In this document: positions 2,638 to 50,661 of the stretch, piece after piece
Layout of the letters: every line of letters starts with the position of its first letter
Numbering within the stretch: position 1 is the first letter of the stretch
Notes under the pieces: model-generated
What the model was told of the DNA's origin: nothing
The model's input: the letters and a program-made list of their open reading frames with translations, nothing else
Database searches by the model: none
Assembly (NCBI RefSeq): GCF_039645965.1
Contig: NZ_CP147917.1
Location: forward strand, 1,054,001 to 1,118,000
Reading direction: 5' to 3'
Origin: Sulfurimonas sp. HSL3-2
GTDB lineage: Bacteria; Campylobacterota; Campylobacteria; Campylobacterales; Sulfurimonadaceae
DNA: 64,000 nucleotides
Made by a program: the position numbers and the translations under genes

Positions 2638-4032
2638 TTATTTTAGCTCTTTTAAAAAACTGCTTATAAGTCTGACGCCTGCACCTGTCGCGCCGTATAC
2701 ATTACAATCCCAAGGAGACTCTGTATATGCAGAACCTGCGATATCAAAGTGCAGCCATTTCTCTTTATTCTCATCTTTAATAAAGTTATCTAAGAACAGA
2801 CCAGCCGTGATCGCACCGCCGTACGGTTTGGAAGCGACATTGGAAAGGTCTGCTATCTCGCTTTTAAGAAGCTTTTTCAGATGTCTGTTAAACGGAAGCG
2901 CTCCTATAAGCTCACCAGACTTGTCTGCAGCTGTAAAAAGGTCGTGTTTAAGCTTGTTTGAGTGTCCCATAACACCTGTCGTATATTGACCAAGAGCCAC
3001 CATACAAGCACCTGTAAGTGTCGCAAAATCGAAGATATAGTCTGCTTTGACTTTGTCTTGTGCATAATCAAGCACATCACATAGCACAAGACGGCCTTCT
3101 GCATCGGTATTTCTTACTTCTACCGTTTTTTTGCTGCGTGTCACAAGCACATCATCAGGTTTGTAAGCATCTCCGCCGATCATATTTTCGACTGCACCGA
3201 TAAATGCGTGTATCTCTACATCTAATTTTAGTTCGCTCGCAGCTTTGATCATTCCAAGGACAGCACATGCACCCGCTTTATCCATCTTCATCGTCACCAT
3301 AGAAGTAGCAGGTTTAAGGCTGAGCCCGCCGCTGTCATAAGTAAGACCTTTTCCTACTAAGCTGATGATCTTTTTCGCTTTTTTAGGTTTGTATGCAAGG
3401 TGGATAAGCTGACTTTCATGGCGTGATGCACGTCCGACTGCAAGCATCGATTCCATCTTCTCTTTACGAAGATCATCTTCACCTAAAACGTTACATGTAA
3501 GCTTGTTTTCACGTGCTAGCTCTTTGGCTATTTCAGCGAAGCTTGCAGGGTGGAGGTCTTCTGGAGTCGTATTGACGATATCACGTGTGAAACATGTAGA
3601 TTCAGCGATGATCACTGCTTCTTCGAATGCTTTTGAAAGCTTTTTGATATCTTTACATGTAAGATAGATATCTTGTAAAGTTGCCTCTTTAGACTCTGAT
3701 TTATATCTGTTGTAGTCGTATCCTCCGAGGATGACACCTTCTACAACGGCTTCTAAATTTTTCGCATCTACCGGGAATGAAGCAGATTCATTTTTAGAAG
3801 ATTTAAGTGCTTTTATCGCTTGGCTGGCAGCACTTCTGATGCAGTCGCTCTCTAATGCTTCGACACCGCACGCTAAGATACCTTTCTCATGCAGAAAACA
3901 AAGTGTGTCTTGTGCCGCTTCAAAACCTGCTTTTTCAAGCAGTTTTTTCTGTTTATGTTTTTTTAGCGTCTCTTTAGTTAAAAACTCTACGCATACATCA
4001 CTTTTTATCTCGTTGACTAGATCTAAATTCAT
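2638..4032 (-). CDS. pepA: Leucyl aminopeptidase, M17 family
   Basis: This 464-residue cytosolic metallopeptidase removes N-terminal amino acids. The C-terminal catalytic domain carries the M17 motifs GKGLTYDSGG (228-237), MKMDKAGA with a metal-binding Asp near 251, and NTDAEGRL (308-315), the family signature that binds two metal ions. The N-terminal domain (about 1-150) is poorly conserved, as usual. Two copies of TTACATGTAA lie inside the gene, read as LTCK (124-127) and LTCN (178-181), neither in a catalytic motif. It is the last gene of the minus-strand run that begins at folD; 22 bases separate it from trpB. Hexamer formation is expected from the family. Confidence 0.95.
   Translation of the reverse strand: MNLDLVNEIKSDVCVEFLTKETLKKHKQKKLLEKAGFEAAQDTLCFLHEKGILACGVEALESDCIRSAASQAIKALKSSKNESASFPVDAKNLEAVVEGVILGGYDYNRYKSESKEATLQDIYLTCKDIKKLSKAFEEAVIIAESTCFTRDIVNTTPEDLHPASFAEIAKELARENKLTCNVLGEDDLRKEKMESMLAVGRASRHESQLIHLAYKPKKAKKIISLVGKGLTYDSGGLSLKPATSMVTMKMDKAGACAVLGMIKAASELKLDVEIHAFIGAVENMIGGDAYKPDDVLVTRSKKTVEVRNTDAEGRLVLCDVLDYAQDKVKADYIFDFATLTGACMVALGQYTTGVMGHSNKLKHDLFTAADKSGELIGALPFNRHLKKLLKSEIADLSNVASKPYGGAITAGLFLDNFIKDENKEKWLHFDIAGSAYTESPWDCNVYGATGAGVRLISSFLKELK
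3491..3500. repeat. TTACATGTAA copy inside pepA
   Basis: An exact copy of the 10-bp palindrome, read in pepA as part of L-T-C-N. Confidence 0.8.
3653..3662. repeat. TTACATGTAA copy inside pepA
   Basis: An exact copy of the 10-bp palindrome, read in pepA as part of L-T-C-K, 162 bases from the neighbouring copy. Confidence 0.8.
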
Positions 4033-4054
4033 TATATATCCTTGATTGGAACTC

Positions 4055-5254
4055 TTAATCGAAATGAAGCAGGTCTTTTGCCTGCATCATATCTTTGTCA
4101 CCGCGTCCTGAAAGGTTGACGATGATCAGTTTACCTTTAATATCTTCTATTTTCTTGAGGTATGCTACCGCATGTGCACTTTCAAAAGCGGGAATGATTC
4201 CCTCTTTTCTACTTAACCATACGAATGCGTCAAGTGCTTCTTCATCTGTCGCATTTCCGTATGATGCAGATCCGTTGTCTTTATGAAATGCATGTTCGGG
4301 TCCGATACCGGGATAATCAAGTCCCGCAGAGATCGAATGCGCTTCAAGTATTTGCCCGTCTTCATCTTGAAGCAGGTAGCTCATCTGTCCGTGGAGTACT
4401 CCGGGACGACCCATTAGAAGAGAACACCCGTGTTTGTCCGTACAGACACCGTGTCCGCCTGCCTCGACACCGATACACTCTACCTCTTTGTCTTCTAAAA
4501 AGTGCTGAAATGCACCGATAGCATTACTTCCGCCGCCGATACAAGCGATAACATGATCAGGAAGACGGTTTTCTTTTTCAAGTATCTGAGCTCTTGCTTC
4601 ATACCCTATGATCGCTTGAAAATCACGTACCATCATCGGATATGGATGAGGACCGGCAACTGTACCGATGATATAAAAAGTATCTCTGGCATTTGTAACC
4701 CAGTGACGGATAGCATCGTTCATTGCGTCTTTTAACGTCTTAGATCCACTCTCTACAGCATTGACTTTTGCTCCCAGAAGCTTCATACGAAAGACGTTTA
4801 GTTCTTGGCGTGCGACATCTTTTGCACCCATGAATATTTCGCACTCCAGACCTAAAAGAGCTGCTATGGTGGCAGTCGCTACACCGTGCTGTCCCGCACC
4901 CGTCTCAGCGATCACTTTTTTGTATCCAAGACGTTTTGCCATAAGACCTTGAGCGATAACGTTGTTTACTTTATGTGCTCCCGTATGGTTCAGGTCTTCA
5001 CGTTTTAAGTAGATTTTTGCTCCGAGCTCTTCAGAGATATTATGTGCATAATAAAGCGGAGAAGGGCGGCCTACATAGTCTTTTAGATAGTAATCGACCT
5101 CTTTCCAGAAATCTTTGTCAAATCTGATCTTTTTGTACTCTTTATCCAGATCTAAAAGCGCCGGCATCAATGTCTCAGGAACATAACGTCCCCCGAATAT
5201 GCCGAAGTGTCCGTTTTCATCAGGATCGAATTTTGATGGTGATGGTATATACAT
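4055..5254 (-). CDS. trpB: Tryptophan synthase beta chain
   Basis: This 399-residue PLP enzyme condenses indole with serine to give tryptophan. The PLP lysine is K95 in [11 protein letters not shown]. The catalytic Glu region AETGAGQHG and the phosphate-binding GGGSNAIG loop are present, and length and motifs match type 1 TrpB. No trpA or other trp gene is adjacent; apt precedes it and pepA follows it. trpB therefore sits apart from the rest of the pathway in this window, as is common in Campylobacterota. The start codon at 5254 overlaps the last base of apt, which indicates translational coupling. Identification is secure. Confidence 0.97.
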
Positions 5255-42946: not shown

Positions 42947-44703
42947 TATGCTTTTACTTGCTCACGGACTCTGATATGAAGCTCTTTTAACTGGTCGTTA
43001 TCGACAGTGCTTGGAGCCTGAGTCAAGATACATGAAGCTTTTTGTGTTTTAGGGAATGCGATGACATCACGGATGCTTGATTTTTTAGAGATAAGCATCA
43101 TAAGTCTGTCAAAACCGATAGCAAAACCACCGTGTGGCGGTGCACCGAATTTTAGTGCATCAAGTAGGAAACCAAATTTTTCTTGTGCTTCCTCTTCACC
43201 GATTCCAAGAAGTTTGAATATCTCTTCTTGAACTTCAGGTTTATGGATACGGATACTACCACCGCCTAGCTCGACACCGTTAAGTACGATATCGTAAGCT
43301 ATAGATTCGATCTCTTCGACATCCTCTTTATCAGTGTCTTTTGGCATAGTAAACGGATGGTGAAGTGCTTTTACGCGTCCGTCTTCAACTTCGAACATAG
43401 GGAAGTCAACGACCCATACGAACTCGAATCTATCTTTGTCTACAAGGTTCATCTTCTCATGTTCAGCGATAAAGATTCTAAAACGTCCCATATAGTCAAG
43501 TACAGTTTTTTTATCTCCTGCACCGAAGAAAACAACGTCACCGACTTCAAGTTCAGTTCTTTCTATAAGAAGCTGAATATCCTCTTCACTGAAGAACTTG
43601 ATAAGCGGACCTTTAAGACCATCTTCTTTCATCTGGAAGTATCCAAGACCGTGAGCACCGAATTTTCTTACAAAGTCTTCAAAGCTTTTCATCTCTCTTT
43701 TTGAAAATACTAAGTCAGCACCCGGAACTTTTAAAGCTTTGATACGGTTCGTATGAGGTTTTTTAGCGATATTTGTAAATATTTCGTTGTCACAACGCTC
43801 GAAGATGTCGATAACGTCGACCATTTTAAGACCATATCTTAAGTCAGGTTTGTCTGAACCGTACCACTCCATAGCATCATTGTGTTTGATACGGTTAAAC
43901 GGTGGTTTTACATCGATACCGCAAGCACCGAACATACCTGTTAAAAGGTCTTCAGCCACTTTGATGACCTCTTCTTGGTCACAGAAGCTCATCTCGACGT
44001 CTATTTGCGTAAACTCAGGTTGACGGTCAGCTCTTAGATCTTCATCTCTAAAACATTTAGCGATCTGGAAATATCTGTCAAATCCACCGACCATAAGTAG
44101 TTGTTTAAATAGCTGCGGTGATTGTGGAAGCGCATAAAACTCTCCATTATGTACACGTGAAGGGACAAGGTAATCTCTTGCACCCTCAGGAGTCGACTTA
44201 GTAAGAATAGGAGTCTCGACCTCTAAGAATCCGTTAGCATCAAGTACGTTACGAGCAGCGATAGCCGCTTTTGAACGAAGACGGAATGTCTCATACATCT
44301 CAGGATCACGAAGTTCTAGATAGCGGTATTTTAAACGTGTCTCTTCACCTACGTTTTTATCCCCGATAACAAAAGGGGTAGGGGCACTTTTATTTTCTAT
44401 TTTTAAAGTATCTACAACTAGTTCTATCTCACCTGTTTTTAGACGAGGATTTACAAGTCCTTCACCACGAGGGCGAATTTTACCTGTTGCTACAAGCACG
44501 AATTCATCGCGAATACCATCAGCGATCTTATGTGCTTCAGCATTGTCAGATGGATCACATACAAGTTGGATCAATCCGCTTTTATCACGCACGTCGATAA
44601 AGATGATCCCGCCGTGGTCACGGTAGCTGTTCGCCCAACCAGCTACAGTTACTACTTCATCTATATTCTTTATGCTTAAGTCTGTACAATAATGAGTTCT
44701 CAA
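42946..44703 (-). CDS. aspS: Aspartate-tRNA ligase
   Basis: The true start is TTG at 44703 (Leu-Arg-Thr-His-Tyr-Cys-Thr-Asp), seven bases after AGGA; upstream codons in frame lack any ribosome site. The 585-residue class II synthetase has an N-terminal OB-fold, class II motif 2 ([23 protein letters not shown]), the bacterial GAD insertion, and motif 3 ([14 protein letters not shown]). It charges tRNA-Asp; in this phylum AspRS is often non-discriminating and also charges tRNA-Asn, with GatCAB completing the reaction. No asnS is seen in the window. It is coupled to the short adk. Confidence 0.95.
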
Positions 44704-44793
44704 ATCTAGATTCCTAAAGAAAAAATTTCCGCGATTATAACTAAAAGTTACTGATACAAAGATAAACGTGCAGGAAAACAGCAGACTTGACAA

Positions 44794-44821
44794 AGCGTTA
44801 TGTAAAAATATATACTACGCT
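44794..44821. promoter_or_regulatory. ModE-like box upstream of the porin-mod operon
   Basis: AGCGTTATGTA (44794-44804) and TATACTACGCT (44811-44821) flank exactly six bases. The known ModE consensus is CGnTATATA-N6-TATATAACG, so this site matches in order, spacing and most positions. Confidence 0.55.
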
Positions 44822-44837
44822 AATTATTTCTAAAAAG

Positions 44838-44886
44838 ATATAACGCTCTATGTATATAAGAATGTTTTTTGCATATAGCGTTATAT
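44838..44886. promoter_or_regulatory. Inverted ModE-type half-sites, 29 bases apart
   Basis: ATATAACGCT (44838-44847) and AGCGTTATAT (44877-44886) are perfect inverted copies of the ModE-type half-site, 46-94 bases before the porin ATG. Together with the box at 44794-44821 this makes four half-sites in one control region. Confidence 0.55.
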
Positions 44887-44931
44887 AAAAAAATACATAA
44901 CAAGAAATAAGTTTAATTTGGAAGGAAATAT

Positions 44932-46395
44932 ATGAAGAAAAGTAGAATGATTAAGATATCGTTGGCGACTTTGGTTTTTTGTACAAGCGCGCAACTATTG
45001 GCACAAGATGACGCACCAAAGCAGGCTTTAAAGACGAACTATCAGCTAGTTTACAATCTAAAACCGGCAAAAGCGGATAGTTTTACAAACATGTTCAAAG
45101 AGGGAAACTTTTTCGGAAGACTTAGATCAAATACATTTATGTATAACTGGGAAAAAGAAACAGCAACACAAAAAAATCATATGACAAGCGGTCTTGGCGG
45201 TTCTCTTGTTTTTCAAAGTGCTGTTTTTGATGACTTTGATTTTAGAACAGCTCTTTACTACAGTCACGGATTTACAAATCTCTCATCAGATAATGCAAAG
45301 TATATGAAAGCCGGTGCAGATGTATTGAGCCGTTTTGATTACAGCAATACAGGTTCTCAAGATCTCGGAGTACTGGGTCAGGCATATATCAGATACAGTG
45401 GTATACAAGACAGTGATATTAAAGTCGGGCGTCAGCTTGTAGAGACTTTTTACACAAAATCAAATGACACGAAGATGATCCCGAACACTTTTGATGCAGT
45501 CGTCTTTGACACAAAACTGCTGCCAAAGACATCTTTGACTGTAGGCTATCTTGCTAAAGAGAAGCTCCGTAACCATACGGACTCACATTCTGTACTTATG
45601 TATGGAGATGCAAACTCATCATCATCGACAAATCCTGCATGGGATGAGAATGATGACAGTGCGATGCATAAAGGTCTTACATATACGGCTTTAAAAGCAG
45701 CAGGAAAACCGACAGATGCTCCTTTGATAGTCGTCGATGTACACAATAAATCTATAGAGAACCTTAACATAGATGCAGCTTACTATAACGTCCCGGAACT
45801 TATCTCTCAAGCGATGATAGAGGGTAACTATAAAGTAGCTATAAACAGTGATTGGTCTGTGACACCGGGTGTGAGATACATCAAACAGTTCGATGACGGA
45901 GCAGGGGCTGTAGGCGGTGCTGCATATGACGGTACGACTACAGGCTACAAAGATCCGACTTCGTTAGATTCTCAGATGCTAGCTGCGAGATTGGTGACTA
46001 AATATAAAAAATTCCAGTTAAACCTTGGATATTCTCATGTTTTTGACGAAGCCGATCTTATAACGCCTTGGAGAGGTTTTCCTACCGCAGGATATACCCG
46101 TTCGATGGCTCGTTATAACTGGATTGCAAATACAAAAAGTTACCGTGCAGAACTCTCTATAAACGGCAATAAAACAGGTGTCTATAAAGATGTGTTTATG
46201 CAGCTTTCCGTACTGCATACAGATGCTGACGAAAGCAAGGGACAGTTTGACGAAAACTTCTACTACGCGGGATTTACACAAAACCTTCCGATGATGCCTG
46301 AGCTTCAATGGCGTTTTAGAATAGGGTATGCGGATACTAAAAAAGTAAATGCGGATAATACAGATACGCGTTTTGAACTAAACTATCTCTTTTAA
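44932..46395 (+). CDS. OprD-family outer-membrane porin
   Basis: This 487-residue protein has a signal peptide (about 1-25, ending LLAQD). A beta-rich body alternates polar and aromatic residues and ends TRFELNYLF, with the terminal Phe of outer-membrane barrels. The mature start (LKTNYQLVYNLKPAKADSFTNMFKEGNFFGRLRSNTFMYNW) matches Campylobacterota OprD-type porins. It is the first gene after the ModE-like sites, and modA begins 16 bases after it, so molybdate or tungstate passage is a reasonable proposal. AAGGAA precedes the ATG. Substrate is inference. Confidence 0.82.
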   Translation: MKKSRMIKISLATLVFCTSAQLLAQDDAPKQALKTNYQLVYNLKPAKADSFTNMFKEGNFFGRLRSNTFMYNWEKETATQKNHMTSGLGGSLVFQSAVFDDFDFRTALYYSHGFTNLSSDNAKYMKAGADVLSRFDYSNTGSQDLGVLGQAYIRYSGIQDSDIKVGRQLVETFYTKSNDTKMIPNTFDAVVFDTKLLPKTSLTVGYLAKEKLRNHTDSHSVLMYGDANSSSSTNPAWDENDDSAMHKGLTYTALKAAGKPTDAPLIVVDVHNKSIENLNIDAAYYNVPELISQAMIEGNYKVAINSDWSVTPGVRYIKQFDDGAGAVGGAAYDGTTTGYKDPTSLDSQMLAARLVTKYKKFQLNLGYSHVFDEADLITPWRGFPTAGYTRSMARYNWIANTKSYRAELSINGNKTGVYKDVFMQLSVLHTDADESKGQFDENFYYAGFTQNLPMMPELQWRFRIGYADTKKVNADNTDTRFELNYLF

Positions 46396-46410
46396 GAAGG
46401 AAATATAAAG

Positions 46411-47157
46411 ATGAAAAAAACAGTTTTAGCCTTAATACTTTCGATCTCTTCGCTTTTTGCAGGAGAGATCAATCTGGCAGTGGCTGCCAATGTCAGTTAT
46501 GCAATGGATGAGTTAAAAGCAGAGTTTGCAAAGATGCATCCCGGTACAAAAATTGAAGTGACACTAGGCAGCAGTGGTAAGCTTACCGCTCAGATAAAAA
46601 ACGGTGCACCGTACGGACTTTTTATGTCTGCAAACATGAAATATCCGGAGGCTCTTTATAAAGATGGTATTGCAACTACAAAACCTGTTGTTTACGCACA
46701 GGGTGCTTTGGCGTACTTTAGTTCAAAGAAACAGGATTTTTCGCAAGGGATCAAGCTTCTTAATTCTAAAGATATTCAAAAGATTGCTGTAGCAAACCCT
46801 AAAACGGCGCCTTACGGTAAAGCGGCGGTGGAAGCGATGAAAAACGGAGGTGTACTTGACAGTGTTAAAACAAAGTTCGTTTATGCTGAAAGTATCTCTC
46901 AAACAGTCGCTTACTCTATTAGTGCTGCAGATATCGGTTTTATCGCAAAATCTTCACTGTATTCGCCAAAAATGGTACAGTATAAAGAGGGCATAAACTT
47001 TAAAGATGTCGATCCTTCACTCTATACTCCAATAAAACAGGGTATAGTTTTACTTAAATTTGCAGATGCGAATAAGGAATATAAAGATTTTTATGACTTT
47101 ATTTTAAGTGCAAAAGCAAAAGAGATATTTAAAAAGTATGGATACCTAGTTCAATGA
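46411..47157 (+). CDS. modA: Molybdate ABC transporter substrate-binding protein
   Basis: This 248-residue periplasmic protein has a signal peptide (about 1-17). Family motifs are INLAVAANVSYAMDELKAEF, VTLGSSGKLTAQIKNGAPYGLFMSAN (oxyanion-binding Ser/Thr residues), AVANPKTAPYGKAAVEAM and a late AYSISAADIGFIAKS. It captures molybdate or tungstate for ModBC. The following TOBE gene overlaps its last four bases. Confidence 0.95.
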   Translation: MKKTVLALILSISSLFAGEINLAVAANVSYAMDELKAEFAKMHPGTKIEVTLGSSGKLTAQIKNGAPYGLFMSANMKYPEALYKDGIATTKPVVYAQGALAYFSSKKQDFSQGIKLLNSKDIQKIAVANPKTAPYGKAAVEAMKNGGVLDSVKTKFVYAESISQTVAYSISAADIGFIAKSSLYSPKMVQYKEGINFKDVDPSLYTPIKQGIVLLKFADANKEYKDFYDFILSAKAKEIFKKYGYLVQ

Positions 47158-47558
47158 ATATAATCAATGCGACTATCACTGATATAAAAAAATATGAAGA
47201 GATCTCAGCGGTATCTTTTAATGCAAACGGCGTAGAGATAAGTATGGTCGCTTTAGAGTTGGATCCAGAACTTAAAATCGGTACAAAAGTACAGCTAAAG
47301 GCCAAAGCGACAAATATCGCTTTGGCTAAAGGCTTTAATTCGCAGATAAGTATAGCCAACCAACTCGAAGCTGTAGTAGAAGATGTCGTAAACGGCGAGA
47401 TATTATGCAGTGTAAAGCTCTCGGTAAAAGAGACTGTCATAGAGAGTATCATCACTCAAAAATCCGCTGTTTCTATGGATATAAAGACGGGTGACAGACT
47501 CATCGCTCTTATAAAATCAAATGATATATCAATAGCATCATTTGAATCAGAATTTTGA
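47154..47558 (+). CDS. TOBE/Mop molybdate-binding domain protein
   Basis: This 134-residue cytosolic protein contains two TOBE-like beta-barrel halves. NIINATITDIKKYEEISAVSFNANGVEISM and VEDVVNGEILCSVKLSVKETVIESIITQKSAVSMDIKTGDRLIALIKSNDISIAS both show the Mop motif (I-x-G/D-x-V near I-x-A-I-I-K-x-x-x-V). It can store molybdate or sense it. ModE usually carries such a domain fused to a DNA-binding part; this one has no DNA-binding domain. In Campylobacter the ModE lacks the TOBE half, so the two could cooperate (inference). It overlaps modA. Confidence 0.8.
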   Translation: MNIINATITDIKKYEEISAVSFNANGVEISMVALELDPELKIGTKVQLKAKATNIALAKGFNSQISIANQLEAVVEDVVNGEILCSVKLSVKETVIESIITQKSAVSMDIKTGDRLIALIKSNDISIASFESEF

Positions 47559-47574
47559 TATAAAGGATATAGAG

Positions 47575-48420
47575 ATGCCTCTACTTTTAGATGCCGAACT
47601 TTTAGAGTATATACGTGAAGATATACCATACTTTGATCTGACTACAACACTGCTCGGTTCAGATTTTGAAAAGGCAAAACTGGAGATAAAGACAAGAGAG
47701 GAGATAGTCGTAGCATGTAGTGAAGAAGCGGCACGAATAGCTGAACTTTTAGGTTGTAAGGTTGAGTTTTTTGTGCCATCGTCAAAAAGAGTTAAAGCAG
47801 GCGAGACGATCATGAGCATTGAAGCAAAAGGAGAGATCCTGCATCAGGCATGGAAACTCACCCAGGTGCTTTTGGAATATGCATGCGGGATGGCTACATA
47901 CGCAAACGATATGCTCTTAAACGTGCAAAAAGTAAATAAACATTGTGAGATATTGGTCACAAGAAAAAGTATCCCTTTTGCTAAGCAGTTTGCTATCCGC
48001 GCATTGTTGTGCGGAGGCATACTGCCTCACAGACTGGGACTTTCGGAGTCCATACTCGTCTTTTCTCACCATCGTTCTCTTTTTAAGGACAGTGATGCAT
48101 TTAAAGAGGGATTTAAAGAGTTAAGATTAAGAGCTGTTGAGAAAAAAGTGGTGGTCGAATGTGAAGGTTTCGATGATGCAAAAGAGATGCTTTCACTCGG
48201 TGCAGATGTTGTCCAGATGGATAAATGCGACATACAGATGCTTACTGAGCTTATGGAGTACAGACAAAAAGAGTTTCCAAGTGCAAAGATCATAGCTGCA
48301 GGAGGCATAAACAAGATGAATGTTGCAGAGTTCGCAAAAACAGGTGTGGATGCCATCATAACAAGCAGCCCTTATCAGGCGAAGATGGCAGATATCAGCG
48401 TAAAATGGATAAAAATATGA
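47575..48420 (+). CDS. modD: ModD-like pyrophosphorylase of molybdate operon
   Basis: The ATG at 47575, seven bases after AAAGGA, gives 281 residues; a TTG further upstream is less likely. The protein is related to nicotinate-nucleotide pyrophosphorylase (NadC): [16 protein letters not shown] at the N-terminus, [40 protein letters not shown] in the middle, and [19 protein letters not shown] with [27 protein letters not shown] at the end. ModD is regularly found in mod operons but its reaction is not established. It overlaps modB (ATGA). Confidence 0.88.
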
Positions 48421-49100
48421 ATGCATTAAACTTTGAACCCTTTTTCCTCTCTTTTAAACTGGCGGCTTTTACAACCGTGATACTTTTTATCATTGCTCTG
48501 CCTCTTAGCTGGTGGCTGAGCCAGACAAACAACAGGTTTAAGCCTATGATCGAAGCATTTGTGTCACTGCCTATCGTGTTACCGCCGTCAGTCTTAGGGT
48601 TTTACATACTCTATGCGCTTTCATACAACTCTCCTTTTGGTGCGTTTATGGATGAGTATTTCGGTGTAAAGATGGTCTTTAATTTTACGGGACTTGTGAT
48701 AGCGAGCTGTTTTTATTCTTTTCCTTTTATGGTGCAGCCGCTTCAAAGCGGGTTTGAATCACTCAATAAAAACATGCTTGAAGCATCATATATTGCAGGT
48801 AAGAGCAGGCTTGTCACTCTCTTACATGTAGCGCTTCCAAACATCAAACCTGCACTTATCACGGCACTTATCATCACATTTGCTCATACTGTAGGCGAAT
48901 TCGGTGTTGTTTTGATGGTCGGAGGATCTATCCCCGGAGAGACAAAAGTCGCTTCTGTTGCGATCTATGAGTATGTTGAGATCATGGACTATACATCTGC
49001 GCATATATACAGCATTATAATGGTGCTTATAAGCTTTTTTGTCTTACTCGGGGTCTATATATTCAATCAACGACAAAGTCGTAAAATGGGCATAATATAA
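48417..49100 (+). CDS. modB: Molybdate ABC transporter permease
   Basis: This permease has about 227 residues from the ATG at 48417 (an in-frame ATG at 48405 is also possible). Five to six membrane helices are present, with the inner loop [49 protein letters not shown], the EAA motif that docks to ModC. It forms the molybdate channel. The coding sequence contains TTACATGTAG, one base off the palindrome. It overlaps modD (ATGA) and touches modC. Confidence 0.94.
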
Positions 49101-49957
49101 TGATCAGACTAGATATAAAAAAGAGATTATTCACAACAAACGGACATGTCGATCTGGATGTCGATATAAAGATCAAGAAAAATGAGTTCGTAGCATTAAG
49201 CGGTGTGAGCGGCAGCGGAAAGACGACACTTTTACGTATCCTTGCAGGACTTGAAGAGGCTAGCGGAGAGATAGATGTCTTCGGTACGCAGTGGCTGAGT
49301 TCTAAAAAAGCTCTTCCTCCGCAGGAAAGGGGTATAGGTTTCGTCTTTCAGGACTATGCGCTGTTTCCAAATATGAACGTTTTACAAAATCTGCTTTTTG
49401 TCAGTAAAGATATAGAGTTGGCAGAACACCTTTTAGAGTTGACGGGCTTGAGTGAGTTAAAGGAGAGGTTTCCAAATATGCTCAGCGGAGGACAGCGTCA
49501 ACGTGTCTCTTTATGCCGTGCTTTGATGAAGCGTCCAAAAATCCTACTCATGGACGAGCCGCTTTCAGCTTTAGATCCCGAGATGAGGACAAAGCTGCAG
49601 CACGATATATTAAGGCTTCACAAAGAGTTTGGTACCACTACGATAATGGTAAGTCATGATCCAAGCGAGATGTACCGTTTAGCCAGCAGAGTACTTGTAC
49701 TTGACCATGGAAAGATCATAAAAGACGGACTGGCAAAAGATATTCTTCTGAAAACACAGGGGAGTCAAAAGTTTACGCTTCAAGGCGAACTCTTAGATAT
49801 AAAAAAAGCCGATGTCATATATATTGCCATAGTGGCTATAGGACAGCAGATAGTGGAGATTGTACTTGATTCAAACGAAGCTAAAAGCTTTAAAATAGGG
49901 CAGAGCGTACAAGTAAGTACGAAAGCATTTTCTCCGTCACTCTCAGATATTAACTAA
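49100..49957 (+). CDS. modC: Molybdate ABC transporter ATP-binding protein
   Basis: This 285-residue ATPase shows Walker A GVSGSGKTT, the Q-loop FVFQDYALFPNMNV, the signature LSGGQRQRVSLCRALMKRPKILLMDEPLSALD with Walker B, and an H-loop MVSHDPSEMY. A C-terminal beta domain (about 225-285) is the TOBE-type regulatory region of ModC. It powers ModB. The ATG overlaps the modB stop by one base. It is the last gene of the mod operon. Confidence 0.95.
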   Translation: MIRLDIKKRLFTTNGHVDLDVDIKIKKNEFVALSGVSGSGKTTLLRILAGLEEASGEIDVFGTQWLSSKKALPPQERGIGFVFQDYALFPNMNVLQNLLFVSKDIELAEHLLELTGLSELKERFPNMLSGGQRQRVSLCRALMKRPKILLMDEPLSALDPEMRTKLQHDILRLHKEFGTTTIMVSHDPSEMYRLASRVLVLDHGKIIKDGLAKDILLKTQGSQKFTLQGELLDIKKADVIYIAIVAIGQQIVEIVLDSNEAKSFKIGQSVQVSTKAFSPSLSDIN

Positions 49958-50027
49958 CTATTGATTTTTTTGAACTACTTTTTGATACAATAAATTGTAC
50001 GACATTTTTAAAAAATAGGAGTTTATC

Positions 50028-50360
50028 ATGACTGCGCGAAAAGACTTAGATTTTAGCGAATTTGAAAAAATTCTAAAAGAACAAAAAGAGAGTATAGAAA
50101 AAAATATAGAAGCTACCCGTTCTGAGATAGAAGCAATAGCTCTTGAAGATGAGATAGACGATATGGAAGATATGGCTGAACTTCAGATCGATAATGCATC
50201 AGACCAGACTATCCTTCATCATCTTGAAACTGAACTTGCAGAGGTCGAAGCCGCATTACAACGTATACATAATAAGAGTTACGGCATTTGTGAAGATACA
50301 GGCAAGCATATCCCGTTAGAGAGATTAAAAGCATACCCTTTAGCCAGAACATTCGCTTAA
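50028..50360 (+). CDS. DksA/TraR-family protein without zinc ligands
   Basis: This 110-residue protein has a long helical hairpin (about 8-80). D45-M46-E47-D48-M49-A50 matches the DxxDxA tip that DksA inserts into the RNA polymerase secondary channel. The C-terminal globular part (YGICEDTGKHIPLERLKAYPLARTFA) aligns with the DksA zinc finger. Only the first Cys (C88) remains; the second is Thr and the closing CxxC pair is missing. It should therefore act without zinc, like DksA2 of Pseudomonas. It may modulate transcription with ppGpp (family knowledge). A TACAAT -10 lies at 49986-49991. Confidence 0.8.
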   Translation: MTARKDLDFSEFEKILKEQKESIEKNIEATRSEIEAIALEDEIDDMEDMAELQIDNASDQTILHHLETELAEVEAALQRIHNKSYGICEDTGKHIPLERLKAYPLARTFA

Positions 50361-50374
50361 AATAAACGACATGC

Positions 50375-50399
50375 CTACAGACTAAAACATAGTCTGTAG
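50375..50399. terminator. Hairpin between convergent genes
   Basis: CTACAGACTA and TAGTCTGTAG form a perfect 10-bp stem around AAACA (loop), 14 bases after the DksA-like stop and before the convergent gene ending at 50437. Confidence 0.75.
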
Positions 50400-50436
50400 A
50401 TAGTATTACTTCTTCTTATAGCCTCAAGATACAGGA

Positions 50437-50661
50437 TTATGCATATGTATCCAACAGATTTGTAGAGTTTACCGTCGGTTTAACTTCTTTTTTTTCACTG
50501 CTTAGATATGTCTGTGCTTTGCTCGCAGTATCATTTGTACTTTCTAAGATCTGCGTGTCTTGCTGAGGGGCTGAAACATCCTGTTTCGCACTTGGATCCG
50601 GTCTTCCTATCTGTACTTGGCTAGGATAGGGTGATTGAAATATATATCGGGTGATATTCAT
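50437..50661 (-). CDS. Small polar protein, unknown function
   Basis: This 74-residue protein is rich in Ser, Thr, Gln and Pro (PYPSQVQIGRPDPSAKQDVSAPQQDTQ). It has no hydrophobic segment or cysteine and ends NSTNLLDTYA. It is likely unstructured. AAAGGAGG precedes the ATG, which supports translation. The composition resembles short proteins encoded near flagellar genes in this phylum, but no firm link can be made. Confidence 0.5.
   Translation of the reverse strand: MNITRYIFQSPYPSQVQIGRPDPSAKQDVSAPQQDTQILESTNDTASKAQTYLSSEKKEVKPTVNSTNLLDTYA

Follow-up and report, generated by a model that had tools for sequence, protein, structure and literature searches.

Passage of molybdate and other trace oxyanions across the outer membrane is rarely tied to a specific protein and is usually left to general porins. 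In Escherichia coli, a ModE operator lies over the modA-side promoter. The mod cluster of Campylobacter jejuni is laid out as modA, a Mop-like gene, modB and modC, and the known OprD/Occ porins of Pseudomonas take carboxylates. In the available portions of two papers, the E. coli-type ModE operator is given as ATCGNTATATA-N6-TATATANCGAT (PMC545781) and a near-identical consensus is reported (PMC2700814). OprD-like porins of Sulfurovum indicum were proposed, on the basis of expression, to serve elemental sulfur/polysulfide (PMC10045233, available portion). For Pseudomonas stutzeri RCH2, one metal-challenge table lists a mutant of the OprD-family porin Psest_1957 as strongly impaired (PMC5554334, Table 1; available portion); the locus number is close to that of mobA (Psest_1961). 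A literature search that took in few subscription journals and left regulon databases outside recognised no paper on a molybdate-regulon porin or on a family-wide pairing with oxyanion systems.

The locus described here lies in a genome of 2.24 Mb in one contig, and the window is the whole 64-kb stretch of that genome that was analysed. Six genes follow one another in tandem over 44932–49957, in the order porin, modA, Mop, modD, modB, modC that the original prediction had described. The features of the upstream region and of the genes are as follows.

44787–44816, + strand: sigma-70-type promoter, TTGACA-N18-TATACT, 11 of 12 consensus bases
44794–44821 (core 44796–44819), no strand: ModE site 1, 3/18 mismatches, over the promoter spacer and −10 element
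44822–44845, no strand: weak ModE-like dyad (site 2), 5/18 mismatches, right half alone good
44838–44847, no strand: ATATAACGCT, first arm of an inverted pair, the right half of site 2
44877–44886, no strand: AGCGTTATAT, second arm of the inverted pair, the left half of site 3
44879–44902, no strand: ModE site 3, 2/18 mismatches, in the leader 30–53 bp before the porin start
44932–46395, + strand: outer-membrane porin of predicted OprD/Occ fold, 487 residues (Pfam OprD; AlphaFold2; VIA-align)
46411–47157, + strand: modA, molybdate-binding protein (TIGR01256, 175.9 bits, cut-off 62.5)
47154–47558, + strand: Mop-like protein, one TOBE/Mop domain (PF03459, 50.5 bits), start overlapping the modA stop
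47575–48420, + strand: modD, nadC-like (TIGR01334, 225.5 bits, cut-off 178.85)
48420–49100, + strand: modB, permease (PF00528, 72.1 bits), placed between modD and modC
49100–49957, + strand: modC, ATPase (PF00005, 112.6 bits), placed after modB

The genes modA and modD were named by NCBIfam cut-offs, and modB, modC and the Mop gene by Pfam domains together with position. modA, modB and modC lie together on one strand, as in a ModABC operon. The porin and modA are separated by 15 bp on the same strand, and no terminator-like site was found between them on the + strand.

The porin matches Pfam OprD (PF03573) with 35.7 bits (cut-off 25) over residues 158–380. An AlphaFold2 model was calculated from 40 aligned relatives (pLDDT 90.2, pTM 0.86). 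The top Foldseek matches to this model are Occ porins (best E 1.3e-23), and VIA-align gave Z scores of 35.1 to a BenF-like porin (r.m.s.d. of 2.9 Å for 373 residues) and 35.0 to OpdK. A sequence profile of the porin finds the same PDB families weakly (best E 4e-5). The protein is thus predicted, from the model, to adopt the OprD/Occ barrel fold.

Homologues of the porin at E 1e-40 or better occur in 182 of the 228 genomes of the family. Gene contexts were compared for 112 distinct porins from 160 loci (L074–L233; L145 was dropped and L075 is without a porin), a set taken from the top-scoring matches to the window porin and therefore not randomly sampled. Porin trees were built by quick searches with SH-aLRT support alone. 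In a tree of 113 rows, clades A and B separate with a support of 99. Clade A holds 81 rows (62 mod-linked, six wtp-linked, one cys-linked and 12 unassigned) and clade B holds 32 (24 sox-linked, one mod-linked, one with modE only and six unassigned). The WtpA, SoxB and sulfate-binding-protein neighbours pass NCBIfam cut-offs, and the WtpB and MoeA neighbours match their own families below the equivalog cut-offs. Linkage of the porin to modA, which the original prediction had proposed to compare in other genomes, recurs: among 58 clade-A porins, 44 have modA no more than 3 kb away (in most cases at 12–35 bp), versus one of 52 clade-B porins. The 58 are those above 470 bits in genomes with modA (modA rows of genus g15 being excluded), and the 52 are part of those listed in the family-wide homologue search. 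The other 14 clade-A porins are not near modA, and some are without any oxyanion neighbour.

The genome of the window itself also encodes a clade-B OprD-type paralogue directly after soxXYZAB (L074:7418–9016, near 1991 kb of contig G000:C1), where soxX, soxZ and soxA were identified from their position and their similarity across loci. The sox-linked porin recurs across families and is a candidate thiosulfate channel. At L082:8317–9786, a single case, a clade-A porin lies between a gene for a sulfate-binding protein and cysT-cysW-cysA-like genes; it is the sister of a mod-linked porin in the tree, and its context possibly reflects a switch to sulfate.

A survey directed outside the family covered 20 stretches, two of them (L321 and L322) from within the family. 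Clade-A porins were found there in a mod cluster (L304) and in a wtp cluster (L303). Clade-B-like porins occur inside mod clusters in L306, L308, L310, L311 and L318; the last four have ModE boxes before the porin, and in L306 the boxes precede modE. Further sox-linked porins were found in L305, L309, L313, L314, L315, L319 and L320. The porin of L312 faces modC, modB and Mop, and those of L307 and L316 are without oxyanion-system neighbours. A third, distant porin type adjoins modA in L234, L238, L250, L251, L321 and L322, with 28–32% identity to the window porin in the four compared. A tree of 73 rows places the mod-linked porins in clade A (support 100), in a cluster that lies within the sox-linked porins (93) and in the third type (100), and seven changes are required to explain the four typed contexts. 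On this evidence, at least three porin lineages include members linked to mod genes. Many relatives carry modABC with no porin linked to it, so a dedicated porin is dispensable; some of these porin-less operons are flanked by genes that also border loci with a porin (ORFs judged by eye to be rplM/rpsI-like).

Upstream of the porin start, the 28-bp box of the original prediction, AGCGTTATGTA-N6-TATACTACGCT, was located at 44794–44821. The window was scanned with the ModE-type motif CGTTATATA-N6-TATATAACG, allowing up to three mismatches in 18 positions, and exactly two matches were obtained, at 44796–44819 (three mismatches) and 44879–44902 (two mismatches). The number expected by chance was 0.04, and two matches were obtained in none of 100 shuffles. 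Site 3 is a better match than site 1; this strong dyad had been missed in the original prediction. With a looser motif, both porin sites fall within the top three places of the whole genome (one, two and two mismatches). The third place with two mismatches or fewer is at 946800, before a response-regulator gene. Genome-wide matches with up to three mismatches are about as frequent as those of a reversed-pattern control (17 versus 15 per strand). A pattern search for further members of the ModE regulon in this genome was set aside, since matches other than the two porin sites are at the control level. The promoter at 44787–44816 has the top score among 11 promoter-like sites in 44600–50450; this count is not above that of shuffles.

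An alignment was made of four members of the genus with a mod-linked clade-A porin (the window, L076, L078 and L079). The TTGACA and TATACT elements, site 1 and site 3 are each kept in all four, with 3, 4, 2 and 2 mismatches in site 1 and 2, 2, 2 and 4 in site 3, respectively. The weak dyad of site 2 is found in three and is absent in L079. The likeness to the ModE consensus that had been claimed is upheld by the two window sites and by their retention across the genus. The 10-bp inverted pair fared differently: both arms are present, at 44838–44847 and 44877–44886, and the pair was rejected as an operator in its own right, because its right half precedes its left half, which is the wrong order for one operator, and the arms are split between two dyads.

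The original prediction called for a modE gene elsewhere in the genome, and a full-length homologue of 258 residues is encoded at L001:1132–1908, about 220 kb from the operon. Its DNA-binding domain matches TIGR00637 with 101.2 bits (cut-off 98.5) and is accompanied by two TOBE domains; residues 14–256 align with E. coli ModE (PDB entry 1o7l; 243 residues). Elsewhere in the same genome, at L004:1441–1863 (near 1578 kb), a TOBE/Mop protein lies amid ferredoxin-like and dinitrogenase-cofactor-like ORFs, and is perhaps a nitrogenase-linked molybdenum-binding protein, the neighbouring ORFs having been judged by eye.

ModE boxes were then compared across porins using one motif, the 300 bp upstream of each porin and a limit of 3/18 mismatches. 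Context labels of L303–L320 were assigned by hand, L317 was excluded (its porin was missed by the ORF caller), the boxes of L306, which lie before modE, were left uncounted, and the mod genes of L312 face the porin. Of the 69 mod-linked porins, 27 have a box upstream, as does one of the 20 unassigned porins; none was found for the 31 sox-linked porins, the seven wtp-linked, the single cys-linked or the single one with modE only. The other 42 mod-linked porins are without a box within 300 bp. When 100 permuted half-sites were applied to the 69 mod regions, the mean was 0.03 and the maximum 1/69. In a scan of spacers of 5–8, all matches with three mismatches or fewer have a spacer of 6. The sox-linked porins come last, after soxB, so they control for composition and not for promoter position. 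The presence of ModE (matches of about 79 bits or more) was assessed for the 44 mod-linked loci of known genome. A box accompanies 21 of 31 ModE-positive loci versus one of 13 others (Fisher p = 0.0006, with kinship ignored); ten of the 44 are without a box despite a ModE in the genome, and the sole ModE-negative locus with a box, L095, is near a contig end.

A boxed porin that is not near modA was found in L096. It has its own TTGACA-N18-TATACT promoter, whose spacer and −10 element are overlaid by a box, and a second box lies close to the start codon; since this arrangement occurs away from modA, the layout follows the porin and not only modA. A Na/Pi cotransporter gene (L096:5943–7706) is divergent from this porin. 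Phylogenetic footprinting, the contrast with sox-linked porins, the permuted motifs, the association with ModE and L096 all favour membership of the porin in the ModE regulon, as originally proposed, and on this sequence evidence the porin is very probably regulated by ModE.

Two other accounts of the upstream elements were weighed. The boxes may be chance occurrences in AT-rich intergenic DNA, or sites of another factor. The region is indeed AT-rich and the looser genome-wide matches are at the control level, but the window scan, the conservation in the genus, the contrast across porins and the association with ModE make this account hardly credible. Alternatively, the inverted pair may form a hairpin in the leader RNA and act at the RNA level. 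A strong folding signal was obtained for the window (z = −2.86) and L078 (z = −2.94), that is, for two of the four aligned genus members; it is missing, however, in the other two (L076, z = −0.72; L079, z = −0.38) and in the unlinked L096 (z = −0.17), an Rfam scan of the leader returned no family at threshold, and the arms are ModE half-sites. A hairpin or riboswitch was set aside on these grounds and is considered highly improbable.

The solute is less clear-cut than the regulation. The porin may be a general dianion channel that is regulated by ModE through its place in the mod operon, with a pore blind to the difference between molybdate, tungstate, sulfate and thiosulfate. Its close relatives adjoin wtp, cys and sox systems, whose substrates are all tetrahedral or near-tetrahedral dianions, and the cys-linked porin of L082 is sister to a mod-linked one. 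Few charged columns set the mod clade apart from the sox clade: 17 Lys/Arg columns are kept in both clades A and B, and one alone is specific to clade A. At the Arg405 column, all 71 clade-A rows have a basic residue and most sox-linked rows do not; the column was rejected as a substrate marker because the mod-linked rows that fall inside clade B also lack a basic residue there, so that it fails to follow substrate across lineages. Among the conserved columns tested, no pore feature divides mod-linked from wtp- or cys-linked porins, and porin selectivity cannot be read from such columns. Against a general channel, the porins linked to mod or wtp and those linked to sox fall into distinct clades with tree support, and both kinds coexist in one genome as if not interchangeable. 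We give this explanation slightly less than an even chance. A different possibility is that the porin carries an unrelated solute such as a small carboxylate, and that the mod linkage arises only through the use of that solute by molybdoenzymes such as formate dehydrogenase. The Occ porins of known structure carry, by name, carboxylates, wtp-linked loci have fdhD adjoining moeA, and the genome of the window has five molybdopterin-oxidoreductase matches. The partners switch, however, to sox and sulfate systems, and the factor common to all of them is oxyanions, not formate; we regard an unrelated solute as unlikely.

The preferred reading is that the porin is a ModE-repressed molybdate channel from a family paired with different oxyanion systems, and as a whole this is judged fairly likely. 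We infer a mechanism in which the porin would be the first gene of a co-transcribed molybdate-uptake operon, porin-modA-Mop-modD-modB-modC, read from one sigma-70 promoter (44787–44816) that ModE site 1 overlaps, and the leader carries the second strong site. With ample molybdate, ModE in its molybdate-bound form would occupy these sites and repress the operon; when molybdate is scarce, the porin and the ABC transporter would be produced together, and the OprD/Occ barrel would pass molybdate across the outer membrane to periplasmic ModA. The original prediction had suggested molybdate or tungstate as the solute. Gene context and fold incline us towards molybdate, and only for the wtp-linked relatives would tungstate be the likelier solute; strict selectivity of the porin is held with less confidence than passage itself.

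The Campylobacterota porin family would, in the same reading, be paired with periplasmic systems for molybdate (mod), tungstate (wtp), sulfate (cys) and thiosulfate (sox), and the recurrence of porins beside genes for these four anions points to channels matched to particular oxyanions. A broader proposal is put forward tentatively, as one about as apt to fail as to hold or a little more so: that these porins form a Campylobacterota family of inorganic-oxyanion channels, each encoded and regulated with its periplasmic partner, that mod recruitment occurred in at least three lineages and that, where no porin is linked, the ModE boxes can belong to another outer-membrane system, either TonB-dependent receptors with a TonB-ExbBD of their own or a barrel of the alginate-export type.

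Other outer-membrane components were observed near mod genes. Beside a porin-less mod operon, L254:1728–11553 (and likewise L255) carries exbB, exbD, tonB, genes for two Peripla_BP_2 proteins and two TonB-dependent receptors, a FecCD permease and an ATPase. ModE boxes with one or two mismatches lie at 1728, 2653, 2704 and 8498 in L254, and L255 has a single weak box; the L254 cluster is a possible TonB-dependent route for molybdate or a metallophore. In L242, a barrel of the Alginate_exp family (3402–4760) lies near modA and modE, with a box at 4787 (1/18 mismatches) about 27 bp upstream.

If the broader proposal is true, the outer-membrane step for molybdate would be a dedicated, regulated and replaceable part. 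The mod-operon porin and its sox, wtp and cys sisters provide direct candidates for this step and a set of paralogues in which dianion selectivity can be studied. They are relevant to nitrate reducers and nitrogen fixers at low molybdenum and to thiosulfate oxidisers with periplasmic Sox enzymes.

Compared with E. coli ModE-modABC, the locus shares a ModE with a DNA-binding domain and two Mop/TOBE domains, and an operator over the modA-side promoter; here, by contrast, an outer-membrane porin comes first and the leader contains another strong operator. The ABC and Mop genes are those of the Campylobacterales mod cluster of C. jejuni, whereas the porin at the front, and modD in some, are not part of that cluster. 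The modelled porin resembles the OprD (Occ) porins of Pseudomonas and Acinetobacter, such as OpdK/OccK1 (Z of about 35, r.m.s.d. of 2.9–3.1 Å for about 360–373 residues), but shares 11–16% identity with known Occ porins, and its neighbours handle inorganic oxyanions whereas their substrates are carboxylates. In the available portion of its description, the P. aeruginosa T6SS-ModA-IcmP system likewise assigns an outer-membrane partner to molybdate uptake (PMC8602904). The porins of Sulfurovum indicum are similarly OprD-like Campylobacterota proteins thought to serve a sulfur substrate, but, unlike the window porin, are without a mod or ModE link in the available portion of that paper (PMC10045233). 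The Occ porin and the ModE regulon are each of a known kind.
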